Virus record (IMG/VR): IMGVR_UViG_3300037537_000485
Span: 1 to 36,576 of that record
Direction: 5' to 3' (one strand)
Length of the DNA stretch: 36,576 nt
Source: a virus
The translations under genes and the position numbers were made by a program. The notes under the pieces were generated by a model that was given only the letters and a program-made list of their open reading frames with translations, was not told where the DNA came from and made no database searches. Positions 13,450-16,488 of the stretch are shown here, one piece after another; the first letter of the stretch is position 1, and each line of letters starts with the position of its first letter.

Positions 13450-13512
13450 ATGACAACTACAATCTTCATCATCGCAATCATCGCCATCATCACCGGGATG
13501 ATCAGCGACTAA
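13450..13512 (+). CDS. Membrane micropeptide family a, copy 1 (20 aa)
   Basis: Predicted peptide MTTTIFIIAIIAIITGMISD: one hydrophobic helix with almost no tails. ATG is 40 nt after the promoter and is preceded by AAGG. Two further copies (13918, 15000) encode MTTLFIIAILAIITGMVSS. The size and hydrophobicity resemble small type I toxin peptides or accessory membrane peptides, but no homology is claimed. The repeated conservation argues that it is translated. Confidence 0.7.
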   Translation: MTTTIFIIAIIAIITGMISD

Positions 13513-13514
13513 CC

Positions 13515-13536
13515 CACACACACACACACACACACA
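13515..13536 (+). repeat. CA dinucleotide repeat in a 5' leader
   Basis: About 11 CA units lie between micropeptide copies a1 and b1, just upstream of AAGGAAAACACA and the ATG at 13548. A similar tract precedes the gene at 15169. It extends an unstructured CA-rich leader. Confidence 0.85.
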
Positions 13537-13547
13537 AGGAAAACACA

Positions 13548-13646
13548 ATGGATACACTACTTGCAATCAGCATGGTAACAACAATGGCAATCGTAGGGCT
13601 TTGGCTTTACAGTAGCTTCAAGTGGCAAGGTTGGGGTAAGATCTAA
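13548..13646 (+). CDS. Membrane micropeptide family b, copy 1 (32 aa)
   Basis: 32 residues: start MDTLLAISM, a hydrophobic span through AIVGLWLYSS, then a conserved basic, tryptophan-rich tail FKWQGWGKI. One transmembrane helix with a cationic tail is expected. Ribosome site AAGGA. Copies at 13979 and 16390 keep the second half almost unchanged while the first third varies. It follows family a within the same transcript. Confidence 0.75.
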   Translation: MDTLLAISMVTTMAIVGLWLYSSFKWQGWGKI

Positions 13647-13680
13647 TCTGAGAAAGTTTCAGATTGGCCAACGATTGGGC

Positions 13681-13823
13681 TTGACAAAATCGTGCGAGAC
13701 TGGGGTATCGAACGTCGTAAGTGCTTTGGTAGTAACGACTTAGCAACTACTTTTGCAAAGTTTGAGAAAGGATGGTAGAAAGGGTGGCGAAGAGAGGTGA
13801 AAAATGCCGATAATATATATAGG
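13681..13823 (+). repeat. R element copy 1 (degenerate core; dead B promoter)
   Basis: Starts TTGACAAAATCGTGCG, with a diverged core and loop, followed by CGTCGTAAG, ACGACTTAGCAACTACTTT, GAGAAAGGATGG and ending in a B-type promoter remnant (ATGCCGATAATATATATAGGG without TTGACA or TATAAT). An A promoter takes over at 13851. Confidence 0.85.
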
Positions 13824-13850
13824 GAAAGAGAAAAAATGCCTTGTTTGGGG

Positions 13851-13879
13851 TTGACAAAACGACGCCCACTTGGTATAAT
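13851..13879 (+). promoter_or_regulatory. Consensus promoter, class A
   Basis: TTGACA, 17 bp, TATAAT with CTTGG before the -10 box. Drives the second micropeptide cassette through a leader rich in CAA and ending AAAGGAAACAAACAAAC. Confidence 0.9.
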
Positions 13880-13917
13880 ACACGTATAAGAAACAACAAC
13901 AAAGGAAACAAACAAAC

Positions 13918-13977
13918 ATGACTACTCTCTTCATCATCGCAATCTTGGCAATCATCACCGGAATGGTGAGTAGCTAA
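13918..13977 (+). CDS. Membrane micropeptide family a, copy 2 (19 aa)
   Basis: Peptide MTTLFIIAILAIITGMVSS. The 60-nt coding sequence is identical to copy 3 at 15000. AAAGGA lies 14 nt upstream of ATG. The stop is separated by a single base from the family b gene at 13979, so the two are translated together. Confidence 0.75.
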   Translation: MTTLFIIAILAIITGMVSS

Positions 13978-13978
13978 C

Positions 13979-14077
13979 ATGGATATTCTACTAGCCATCA
14001 GCATGATCTCAACAATGGCAATCGTAGGGCTTTGGCTCTACAGCAGCTTCAAGTGGCAAGGATGGGGTAAGATCTAA
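13979..14077 (+). CDS. Membrane micropeptide family b, copy 2 (32 aa)
   Basis: Starts MDILLAISMISTMAIVGLWL and ends FKWQGWGKI. Single transmembrane helix with cationic Trp-rich tail. One base after the family a stop, so translation is probably coupled. Differs from copy 1 at three or four residues in the first 13, none in the last 19. Confidence 0.78.
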   Translation: MDILLAISMISTMAIVGLWLYSSFKWQGWGKI

Positions 14078-14111
14078 TCTGAGAAAGTTTTGGAATAGCC
14101 CCTGATTGGGC

Positions 14112-14140
14112 TTGACAATTGACGACTTACTTGGTATAAT
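14112..14140 (+). promoter_or_regulatory. Consensus promoter, class A
   Basis: TTGACA, 17 bp, TATAAT, with ACTTGG before the -10 box. Precedes the lysine/proline peptide at 14185. Confidence 0.9.
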
Positions 14141-14184
14141 AGAAGCATACAAAACAACAACAGTTCTTGAAAGGAACAAACAAC

Positions 14185-14286
14185 ATGAAGAATAACAAAA
14201 ACAAAAACACCAACAAGCCGGTTACCAAGCCGGTCAAGAAGCCGGTTATCAAGCCGGAGCCTATGCAATGGAAGCATTACGATTGA
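14185..14286 (+). CDS. KPV-repeat basic peptide (33 aa)
   Basis: 33 residues, Asn/Lys-rich start (MKNNKNKNTN) followed by four variants of KPV/KPxx (NKPVTKPVKKPVIKPEP) and ending MQWKHYD. It is strongly basic and probably disordered. Ribosome site TTGAAAGGA. Function unknown; nucleic acid or membrane surface binding is possible. Confidence 0.65.
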   Translation: MKNNKNKNTNKPVTKPVKKPVIKPEPMQWKHYD

Positions 14287-14999: not shown

Positions 15000-15059
15000 A
15001 TGACTACTCTCTTCATCATCGCAATCTTGGCAATCATCACCGGAATGGTGAGTAGCTAA
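15000..15059 (+). CDS. Membrane micropeptide family a, copy 3 (19 aa)
   Basis: Nucleotide sequence identical over 60 nt to the copy at 13918, encoding MTTLFIIAILAIITGMVSS. Leader contains ACAGGAAACAAACAAAC. Not followed by a family b gene; a CA tract and the gene at 15169 come next. Confidence 0.75.
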   Translation: MTTLFIIAILAIITGMVSS

Positions 15060-15116
15060 GGCCAATGGGATTCTGGAGCCGAGAGGCTAGGGGCTACTGC
15101 CCACTGCTATCCCCCC

Positions 15117-15147
15117 CACACACACACACACACACACACACACACAC
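15117..15147 (+). repeat. CA dinucleotide repeat
   Basis: About 15 CA units between micropeptide a3 and the gene at 15169, preceded by seven C. Directly upstream of CCTTGAAAGGGTAACACACA. Likely slippage-prone and a source of length variation in the leader. Confidence 0.9.
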
Positions 15148-15168
15148 GCCTTGAAAGGGTAACACACA

Positions 15169-15357
15169 ATGATCAAGATCCAAGACGCAACAGTTGAGAC
15201 ACTCGACGACACACAGGCCCGCCCCGTGGGTAGTACGGTACTGGCCGTGACCATTGGCGACCACGCCTTCCAGATGCTTGTCGATGAGCATGAGTTGCGA
15301 GAGGCAATGGCAAGCGCGAATGGTGGCACTAAGCCATGCATGACACCCGCGCCGTAG
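15169..15357 (+). CDS. Hypothetical protein, paralogue of the gene at 16185 (62 aa)
   Basis: Starts MIKIQDATVETLDDTQARPV, middle STVLAVTIGDHAFQMLVDEHEL, ends TPAP. The paralogue at 16185 shares NATVETL, QARPV, VTIGDHxF, LVDExEL and the PAP ending. Beta-rich N half followed by a helix. Ribosome site CTTGAAAGGG. Function not recognised. Confidence 0.75.
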   Translation: MIKIQDATVETLDDTQARPVGSTVLAVTIGDHAFQMLVDEHELREAMASANGGTKPCMTPAP

Positions 15358-15446
15358 GATGCCCGTAGTCTAATAGGGGCCGCCAGCTTCCTGAGTCTTG
15401 CCTAAGCAAGCTCTCTAGGAGTCTGAGAGGGGCATACCGCACCTGA

Positions 15447-15583
15447 GCTTTTTGTGCGGAGCGGGGGTTTCGCACGTCGTAACTCCTTGGTGGGTAACGA
15501 CTTACAACTACTTTTGCAAAATCTGAGAAAGGGTGGTAGAAAGGGTGGCGACGGAGGGTAAAAAATGCCGATAATATATATAG
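15447..15583 (+). repeat. R element copy 3 (lost -35; dead B promoter)
   Basis: The TTGACA is replaced by GAGCTTTTT, but GTGCGG, GGGGGTTTCGCACGTCGTAA, ACGACTTACAACTACTTTTGCAAAA and doubled AAAGGGTGG follow. It ends ATGCCGATAATATATATAGGG without a working -10. The A promoter at 15612 takes over. Confidence 0.85.
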
Positions 15584-15611
15584 GGAAAGAAAGAAAAGGC
15601 CTTGTTTGGGG

Positions 15612-15640
15612 TTGACAAAACGAGACCTACTTGGTATAAT
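15612..15640 (+). promoter_or_regulatory. Consensus promoter, class A
   Basis: TTGACA, 17 bp, TATAAT with ACTTGG before the -10 box. Drives the HAD phosphatase gene. The leader begins ATGAGAAACAAAGAAAC; that ATG is at the expected transcription start and is in frame. Confidence 0.9.
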
Positions 15641-15667
15641 AGGGTTATGAGAAACAAAGAAACAACA

Positions 15668-16114
15668 ATGAAAAACAGAACCAAAGCATTCGTATTCGAT
15701 TTCGATGACACGCTCGCTCACACAAGTGCAGTTGAACGTGAAGGAACTGAAGATCGATTCGCGGAGTTCAATGATCCTTCAACAATCTTGAACGGAACGC
15801 CATTGGAACTGATGACCTTGGCGAAGGAAGTTTACGATGAAGGCCATACGGTTTTCATCTTGACGGCCCGCAACAAGCGTATTGCAAACGCAATTGCTGA
15901 GTTCTTGAATGGCTTCGACATTGAAGCACATGAGATTCATTGCATCGGTGAAGACAGTCCAGAACAAGGCAACGTAGGACAAAACGTTGCAAAGGCGAAA
16001 AGAACGGTTCTGCTGAGTATCATCGAGAATCACGATGTGGTTTATTTCTTCGATGATGATGAGAAGAACATTGAACTTGCAAGCGAACTTGATTGCAGGG
16101 CAAGAAAAGTTTGA
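15668..16114 (+). CDS. HAD-superfamily phosphatase (148 aa)
   Basis: Haloacid dehalogenase motifs are clear: FVFDFDDTLAH (nucleophile Asp11, acid/base Asp13), VFILTARNK (motif II Thr), a Lys-bearing segment (AKRTVLL) and VVYFFDDDEKN (motif IV acidic pair). This size fits a small HAD phosphatase such as the 3'-phosphatase half of polynucleotide kinase or a nucleotidase. The substrate is unknown. Start at ATG 15668 is chosen because the ATG at 15647 sits in the shared leader motif. Own class A promoter at 15612. Confidence 0.85.
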   Translation: MKNRTKAFVFDFDDTLAHTSAVEREGTEDRFAEFNDPSTILNGTPLELMTLAKEVYDEGHTVFILTARNKRIANAIAEFLNGFDIEAHEIHCIGEDSPEQGNVGQNVAKAKRTVLLSIIENHDVVYFFDDDEKNIELASELDCRARKV

Positions 16115-16116
16115 GC

Positions 16117-16145
16117 TTGACAAGCTGAGCCAAACTTGGTATAAT
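16117..16145 (+). promoter_or_regulatory. Consensus promoter, class A
   Basis: TTGACA, 17 bp, TATAAT with ACTTGG before the -10 box. It starts 3 nt after the HAD gene stop. The leader ATGAGAAACAACGAG ends AAAGGAAAACGG before ATG 16185. Confidence 0.9.
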
Positions 16146-16184
16146 ACACACATGAGAAACAACGAGAACACAAAGGAAAACGGA

Positions 16185-16361
16185 ATGCTCTTGATCAAAA
16201 ACGCAACAGTAGAAACACTCGGCCAGAAGCAAGCTCGCCCCGTGACGAATCCCTCTAAGACGGTGTTGAGTGTGACCATTGGTGATCACACATTCGACTG
16301 GCTTGTCGATGAGTATGAGTTGATCCAAGCACTGGCAAGCCAATACAATCCCGCACCGTAA
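16185..16361 (+). CDS. Hypothetical protein, paralogue of the gene at 15169 (58 aa)
   Basis: Starts MLLIKNATVETLGQKQARPV, then VLSVTIGDHTFDWLVDEYEL, ends NPAP. AAAGGA is 9 nt upstream of the chosen ATG; an ATG at 16152 in the leader would add eleven residues. Clearly a duplicate of the 15169 gene with about 50% identity by eye. Confidence 0.75.
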   Translation: MLLIKNATVETLGQKQARPVTNPSKTVLSVTIGDHTFDWLVDEYELIQALASQYNPAP

Positions 16362-16389
16362 CACACACATACCTTGAAAGGGTAACACA

Positions 16390-16488
16390 ATGAACGTACT
16401 ACTTGCAATCAGCATGACAGCGACAATGACAGTGGTAGGGCTTTGGCTTTACAGTAGTTTCAAATGGCAAGGATGGGGCAAGATCTGA
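16390..16488 (+). CDS. Membrane micropeptide family b, copy 3 (32 aa)
   Basis: Starts MNVLLAISMTATMTVVGLWL and ends FKWQGWGKI. Ribosome site CCTTGAAAGGG instead of the CAA leader. Its TGA overlaps the ATG of the gene at 16488 (TGATG), so here the micropeptide is coupled to a different downstream protein. Confidence 0.78.
   Translation: MNVLLAISMTATMTVVGLWLYSSFKWQGWGKI

Follow-up and report, generated by a model that had tools for sequence, protein, structure and literature searches.

Promoter-proximal hydrophobic micropeptide genes in a tailed phage and its relatives, candidates for early host-takeover membrane peptides

Two very short peptides, a (19-20 residues) and b (32 residues), are each encoded three times, on translation, by the IMG/VR virus record IMGVR_UViG_3300037537_000485, a 36.6 kb fragment analysed here over its whole length of 36,576 bases (the window). 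Both are real genes and not chance open reading frames (ORFs). The enrichment of hydrophobic short ORFs behind promoters in a clade of related phages, together with the ratio of non-synonymous to synonymous differences per site (pN/pS) in groups of such peptides, identifies a and b as two members of a large, coding and fast-turning class. We propose, with a probability of roughly 0.5, that they are single-helix membrane micropeptides of early host takeover.

Repeated genes for peptides a and b

The six genes are as follows.

13450-13512, plus strand: peptide a, copy 1 (a1); 20 residues, MTTTIFIIAIIAIITGMISD; from translation, with a Shine-Dalgarno (SD) sequence and an unstructured leader
13548-13646, plus strand: peptide b, copy 1 (b1); 32 residues; from translation and pN/pS, with its own SD sequence AAGGA
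13918-13977, plus strand: peptide a, copy 2 (a2); 19 residues, MTTLFIIAILAIITGMVSS; from translation
13979-14077, plus strand: peptide b, copy 2 (b2); 32 residues; ATG 1 nucleotide (nt) past the a2 stop
15000-15059, plus strand: peptide a, copy 3 (a3); 19 residues, MTTLFIIAILAIITGMVSS; DNA equal to copy 2, including the ribosome-binding site
16390-16488, plus strand: peptide b, copy 3 (b3); 32 residues; from translation and pN/pS

The first-pass annotation of this DNA had described a repeated a-b cassette, and translation confirms the positions of all six ORFs as well as the two pairs, 13450 with 13548 (35 nt gap) and 13918 with 13979 (1 nt gap); in the second pair translation of b2 is probably coupled to that of a2. 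The identity of 60 nt claimed for the a copies at 13918 and 15000 proves slightly longer, extending over at least 75 nt (13903-13977 = 14985-15059) with the ribosome-binding site included, and the synonymous changes quoted for the b copies are found in the sequence. All three b copies of the window share the C-terminal end GLWLYSSFKWQGWGKI.

Searching with a pattern specific to the b tail located two more contigs, and a promoter-based search one further contig; the b family now has six members in four phages. Three additional contigs retrieved by a looser pattern were rejected as off-frame chance matches within other genes. The six b genes are constant in length, with neither indels nor stops; frame-disrupting indels in related phages, which had been named in advance as an observation that would speak against the peptides, are thus absent, and frame and length are kept. 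The comparison of pN/pS across b homologues that had been suggested gives a pooled value of 0.205 for the six genes and 0.074 for codons 18-32, and the conserved tail reads FKWQ[GA]WGKI. Nucleotide differences in amino-acid-changing codons number 32 against a neutral mean of 46, and none of 20,000 neutral runs, simulated on a star tree that kept the number of changes and the transition fraction at their observed values, had so few. AlphaFold2 models b as one helix spanning residues 2-31 (mean predicted local distance difference test score, pLDDT, 86). Protein-level selection on b and membrane character, as originally claimed, are thus upheld by pN/pS, simulation and the predicted helix. For a, the pair in the window gives a pN/pS of 0.46; since the window holds just two distinct a sequences, the case for selection on a rests on weaker relatives elsewhere.

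The first pattern derived from a had no match in viral contigs because a diverges fast; it was promoters and BLAST that later revealed those relatives. The match of peptide a to MDTLFIIALIAICYEAALESNGDW in contig L032 is stronger than those to a YEGLLG peptide and MNWFLIIAIIAIIIDG in contig G003; by way of these peptides a is linked onward to L202, L028 and L186, which have YEGLLGNL peptides. Taken one by one, the links from the window copies are weak (expectation values, E, of 1e-3 to 3e-2 in a small database), and the other a-type peptides are linked to one another more strongly (E 1e-5 to 1e-10). A hydrophobic peptide of 32-34 residues ending in HPW..K comes next after the a-type peptide in L032, at a gap of 33 nt, and in L202, with a TAATG overlap; in L028 the a-type peptide is followed by more short hydrophobic ORFs, closely spaced. 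The HPW-tail peptide resembles b in design, with a helix and then a cationic Trp tail; homology of the two families is unsupported (hhalign probability 18%), though both come after an a-type peptide.

Promoters and a clade-wide class of hydrophobic micropeptides

The window comes from a tailed phage, with terminase, portal and head-type genes (names from sequence reading) on the minus strand to about 12 kb and, past that point, a plus-strand region with many small genes. Between 13 and 17 kb this region has six promoters matching TTGACA-N17-TATAAT at 12 of 12 positions, each lying on the plus strand and carrying TG before its -10 element; promoters with at most one mismatch number 29 in the whole window and occur on the plus strand only. 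Each a gene, and each unit carrying a b gene, lies shortly 3' of a perfect promoter and has an SD sequence:

13382-13410, plus strand: promoter of a1-b1, TTGACA-17-TATAAT with TG before the -10 element; 12/12 consensus
13851-13879, plus strand: promoter of a2-b2; 12/12 consensus
14932-14960, plus strand: promoter of a3; 12/12 consensus
16117-16145, plus strand: promoter of the b3 unit; 12/12 consensus

The a leaders are essentially unfolded (0 to -2.4 kcal/mol). Mostly small genes, strong host-type promoters and good ribosome sites, which are features of a host-takeover module, are all present here.

The same arrangement recurs in a clade set of 152 stretches (2.3 Mb) gathered around the terminase and a GP88-like early gene; neither the perfect promoters nor this recurrence had figured in the first-pass annotation. 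Short ORFs of 15-45 residues were called promoter-proximal when they lay directly behind a promoter with at most one mismatch, and hydrophobic when a 15-residue stretch reached a mean Kyte-Doolittle value of at least 2, which is a threshold and not a trained predictor. Hydrophobic peptides make up 38 of the 72 distinct promoter-proximal ORFs of this size, compared with 302 of 3,093 other short ORFs bearing an SD sequence (Fisher p = 3e-19, a nominal value as related sequences are not fully independent), and 8 of 380 promoter-proximal ORFs of at least 46 residues. A smaller set, with duplicate contigs removed, has 20 hydrophobic peptides among 32, where length matching predicts 3. By sequence, the hydrophobic micropeptides make up about 27 clusters, and at least one stands directly behind a promoter in 25 of the 69 stretches that have four or more promoters. 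Nine peptide groups, the a pair of the window included, gave pN/pS values of 0.16-0.46. Genes of 16-45 codons, usually skipped by annotation, thus form a large and conserved part of the early region of these phages, and the combination of promoter and hydrophobicity offers a simple search route for micropeptide genes in other phages.

The surroundings of the cassettes include three further features.

15169-15357, plus strand: soluble MIKIQDATVETL protein, 62 residues; shares a promoter unit with a3; relatives found
16185-16361, plus strand: 58-residue paralogue of the 15169 protein; 5' of b3, within its promoter unit
13643-13667, plus strand: hairpin after b1, from folding; without a T-run, and with a weaker counterpart after b2

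Since a3 precedes the gene for the 62-residue protein and b3 follows that gene's paralogue, the region looks like the product of reshuffled duplications. Microsatellites of CA dinucleotides lie just 5' of b1 (13513-13536) and between a3 and the 62-residue gene (15115-15148), where changes in their length could shift the spacing to the next start. An intergenic repeat, CGTAAGT..CCTTTGGTA..ACGACTTACAACTACTTT, stands 5' of promoters at 13717-13755, 14662-14700, 15479-15517 and 17106-17145; these 4 copies in the window compare with 27 in the 2.3 Mb of relatives and none in shuffles of the window, and the repeat, which includes the inverted repeat GTAAGT/ACTTAC, is a candidate terminator, processing site or operator. 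A second promoter class (17174, 21976, 23235, 24821 and relatives) has a spacer core, GCCGATAATA, common across the clade, which is possibly an operator overlapping the promoter. Other small peptides are encoded here as well. Soluble ones with a conserved ARWxxM motif, such as TPARWSGMLTWARTNGYI and SPARWAAMVRQAK, are found directly behind promoters at 14782-14898 and in L008, L009, L074 and G009, and a Lys/Pro-rich peptide of 33 residues, MKNNKNKNTNKPVTKPVKKPVIKPEPMQWKHYD, has its own perfect promoter (14185-14286).

Proposed function and its alternatives

To judge from the promoters, host RNA polymerase would transcribe the cassettes strongly on entry of the DNA, after which a and b would insert into the host inner membrane and, where coupled, might act jointly. 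The positive-inside rule puts the Lys/Trp-rich tail of b in the cytoplasm; b would probably take an N-out/C-in orientation, and its cationic Trp-rich tail would sit at the inner interface. The peptides most likely disturb or adjust the host membrane early in infection, and the rapid turnover of families suggests either a changing host target or a redundant, largely physico-chemical action. A more ambitious proposal, possible but in our view doubtful, is that the clade carries an undescribed and fast-evolving arsenal of promoter-driven single-helix micropeptides. It would comprise tens of families, with several in each phage and often arranged in acidic/cationic pairs with coupled translation, and would act on a host target through membrane effectors of two parts. 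If they do act on the host membrane, such peptides would be a compact natural set of agents that inhibit or modulate membrane machines.

Several points weigh against a role in host takeover. The functional step goes beyond the sequences and models through which the peptides are known here, and b is known from four phages only. Background short ORFs are mostly non-genes, and the enrichment shows hydrophobicity and probable gene status, not function. The control phages SPO1, Stahl, T5 and T4 yielded two promoter-proximal micro-ORFs; with so few for comparison, they do not establish the enrichment as a peculiarity of the clade. The consensus used in the promoter scan is that of E. coli sigma70, which may not be the host's, and the likeness to the SPO1 module described below is one of architecture, without sequence similarity.

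Three candidate functions had been put forward in the first-pass annotation, namely superinfection exclusion, toxin-like depolarising peptides and accessory subunits of host membrane complexes. Sequence does not separate them, but the complex-subunit and type I toxin-antitoxin readings have been weakened while superinfection exclusion remains a candidate, and the evidence favours the broader reading in which the membrane micropeptides form a set for early host takeover. Under superinfection exclusion or immunity, peptides in the inner membrane would block DNA entry by later phages, as does T4 Imm, a larger protein annotated as working via membrane change. The early-type promoters and the membrane character fit, and family turnover and changes in copy number could reflect competition between phages; we nevertheless consider this unlikely, as it has no specific support, the peptides show no connection with an injection or tail gene and the need for many different peptides per phage is left unexplained, and to our knowledge the known exclusion proteins are larger than a and b. 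Depolarisation like that caused by type I toxins, with no antitoxin since a lytic phage kills its host anyway, also seems improbable. The precedents IbsC (19 residues) and ShoB (26 residues) depolarise cells, and several toxins require cationic C-terminal residues (PMC8309996). In size and hydrophobicity a and b match IbsC and ShoB, and each is small and hydrophobic, with a single predicted helix. Yet the minus strand of the window has no antisense promoter with at most one mismatch (the best antisense candidates at 13-17 kb match at 9-10 of 12 positions), an argument that is consensus-based and hence indirect, and a closed mRNA leader was sought for a and not found, the folding energies being those given above; both results speak against a classical type I toxin-antitoxin pair. 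Strong open leaders would, moreover, bring about an early collapse of the energy on which the phage itself depends, and the exact conservation of the b tail exceeds the apparent need of generic pore-forming peptides.

That conservation would instead suit accessory or mimic subunits that, like CydX, KdpF or AcrZ, bind one host membrane complex and sustain or retarget it; the FKWQ[GA]WGKI tail suggests a specific partner, and the phage carries the metabolic genes SufB and 3-hydroxyacyl-CoA dehydrogenase. However, Pfam, NCBIfam and PHROGs contain no family match for a or b (best E 0.09-0.21, at chance level), and a complex-subunit origin, which we rate as quite improbable, loses ground, since no gene in a collection of 84,980 prokaryote genomes carries the b tail pattern. 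It is very unlikely that the peptides are leader or coupling peptides for which translation of the small ORF matters and not its product: a3 does precede the 62-residue gene and some pairs in relatives overlap as TAATG, but selection acts at the amino-acid level and no ORF follows b in its units.

Phage relationships and comparison with known systems

A near-DNA search of named phages gave no match, and the terminase is about 23% identical to those of named phages, the best being the Bacillus phages Stills and Stahl; relatives of the terminase are encoded in 450 IMG/VR stretches. The host assignment is unsettled. SufB shows 69-75% identity to Planctomycetota and 60-72% to Chloroflexota proteins, and transfer-messenger RNA (tmRNA) matches, mostly short 3' ends, occur in 173 of 294 Planctomycetota and 17 of 201 Chloroflexota, while a search of 392 Planctomycetota genomes, made without a positive control, found no relative of the terminase. 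The complete one-piece tmRNA gene of the window (33242-33586, tag AEKQFALAA) adjoins the genes for 3-hydroxyacyl-CoA dehydrogenase (32189-33235) and SufB (34029-35423), and the related contig L008 encodes an acyl-CoA dehydrogenase-like protein of 617 residues (2665-4518, minus strand; name from sequence reading) near its terminase. One related contig of 161 kb has early-type genes at both ends, the window itself being only a fragment.

Among known systems, type I toxins (IbsC, ShoB, TisB) share with a and b their length, a hydrophobic helix and repeated copies, but neither an antisense RNA unit nor a sequestered SD sequence was found for a and b, which lie in a phage early region behind consensus promoters. 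The small regulatory membrane proteins CydX, KdpF and AcrZ are likewise single helices of fewer than 50 residues; unlike this comparison set, a and b match no family model, and no host homologue of the b tail was found. A protein search with b among phages returned Kayvirus matches only (E 9). The best of these by tblastn, covering 23 residues of a 61-residue protein, is non-significant and at chance level, and falls among the small proteins of the Kayvirus terminal repeat, an early-type region.

The host-takeover module of SPO1 consists mostly of small early genes whose promoters and ribosome sites are of the kind seen in highly expressed genes (PMC6873191). The cassettes resemble it in small gene size, strong promoters and ribosome sites; in SPO1 itself the module lies in the terminal redundancy. 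The closest precedent for b is SPO1 gp37, MSDVIIPFLTSAVTAFIVAYLLDRWYIKRRR (31 residues, translated from the record), with a single hydrophobic stretch and a cationic aromatic C-terminal tail; its expression attenuates growth of B. subtilis by at least 50% (PMC6873191). A further hydrophobic peptide of the module, gp50 (23 residues), is likewise short and is annotated for transcription regulation. In SPO1, however, such peptides are a minority and single-copy, whereas here they are duplicated, partly coupled and spread as many families over a marine clade.

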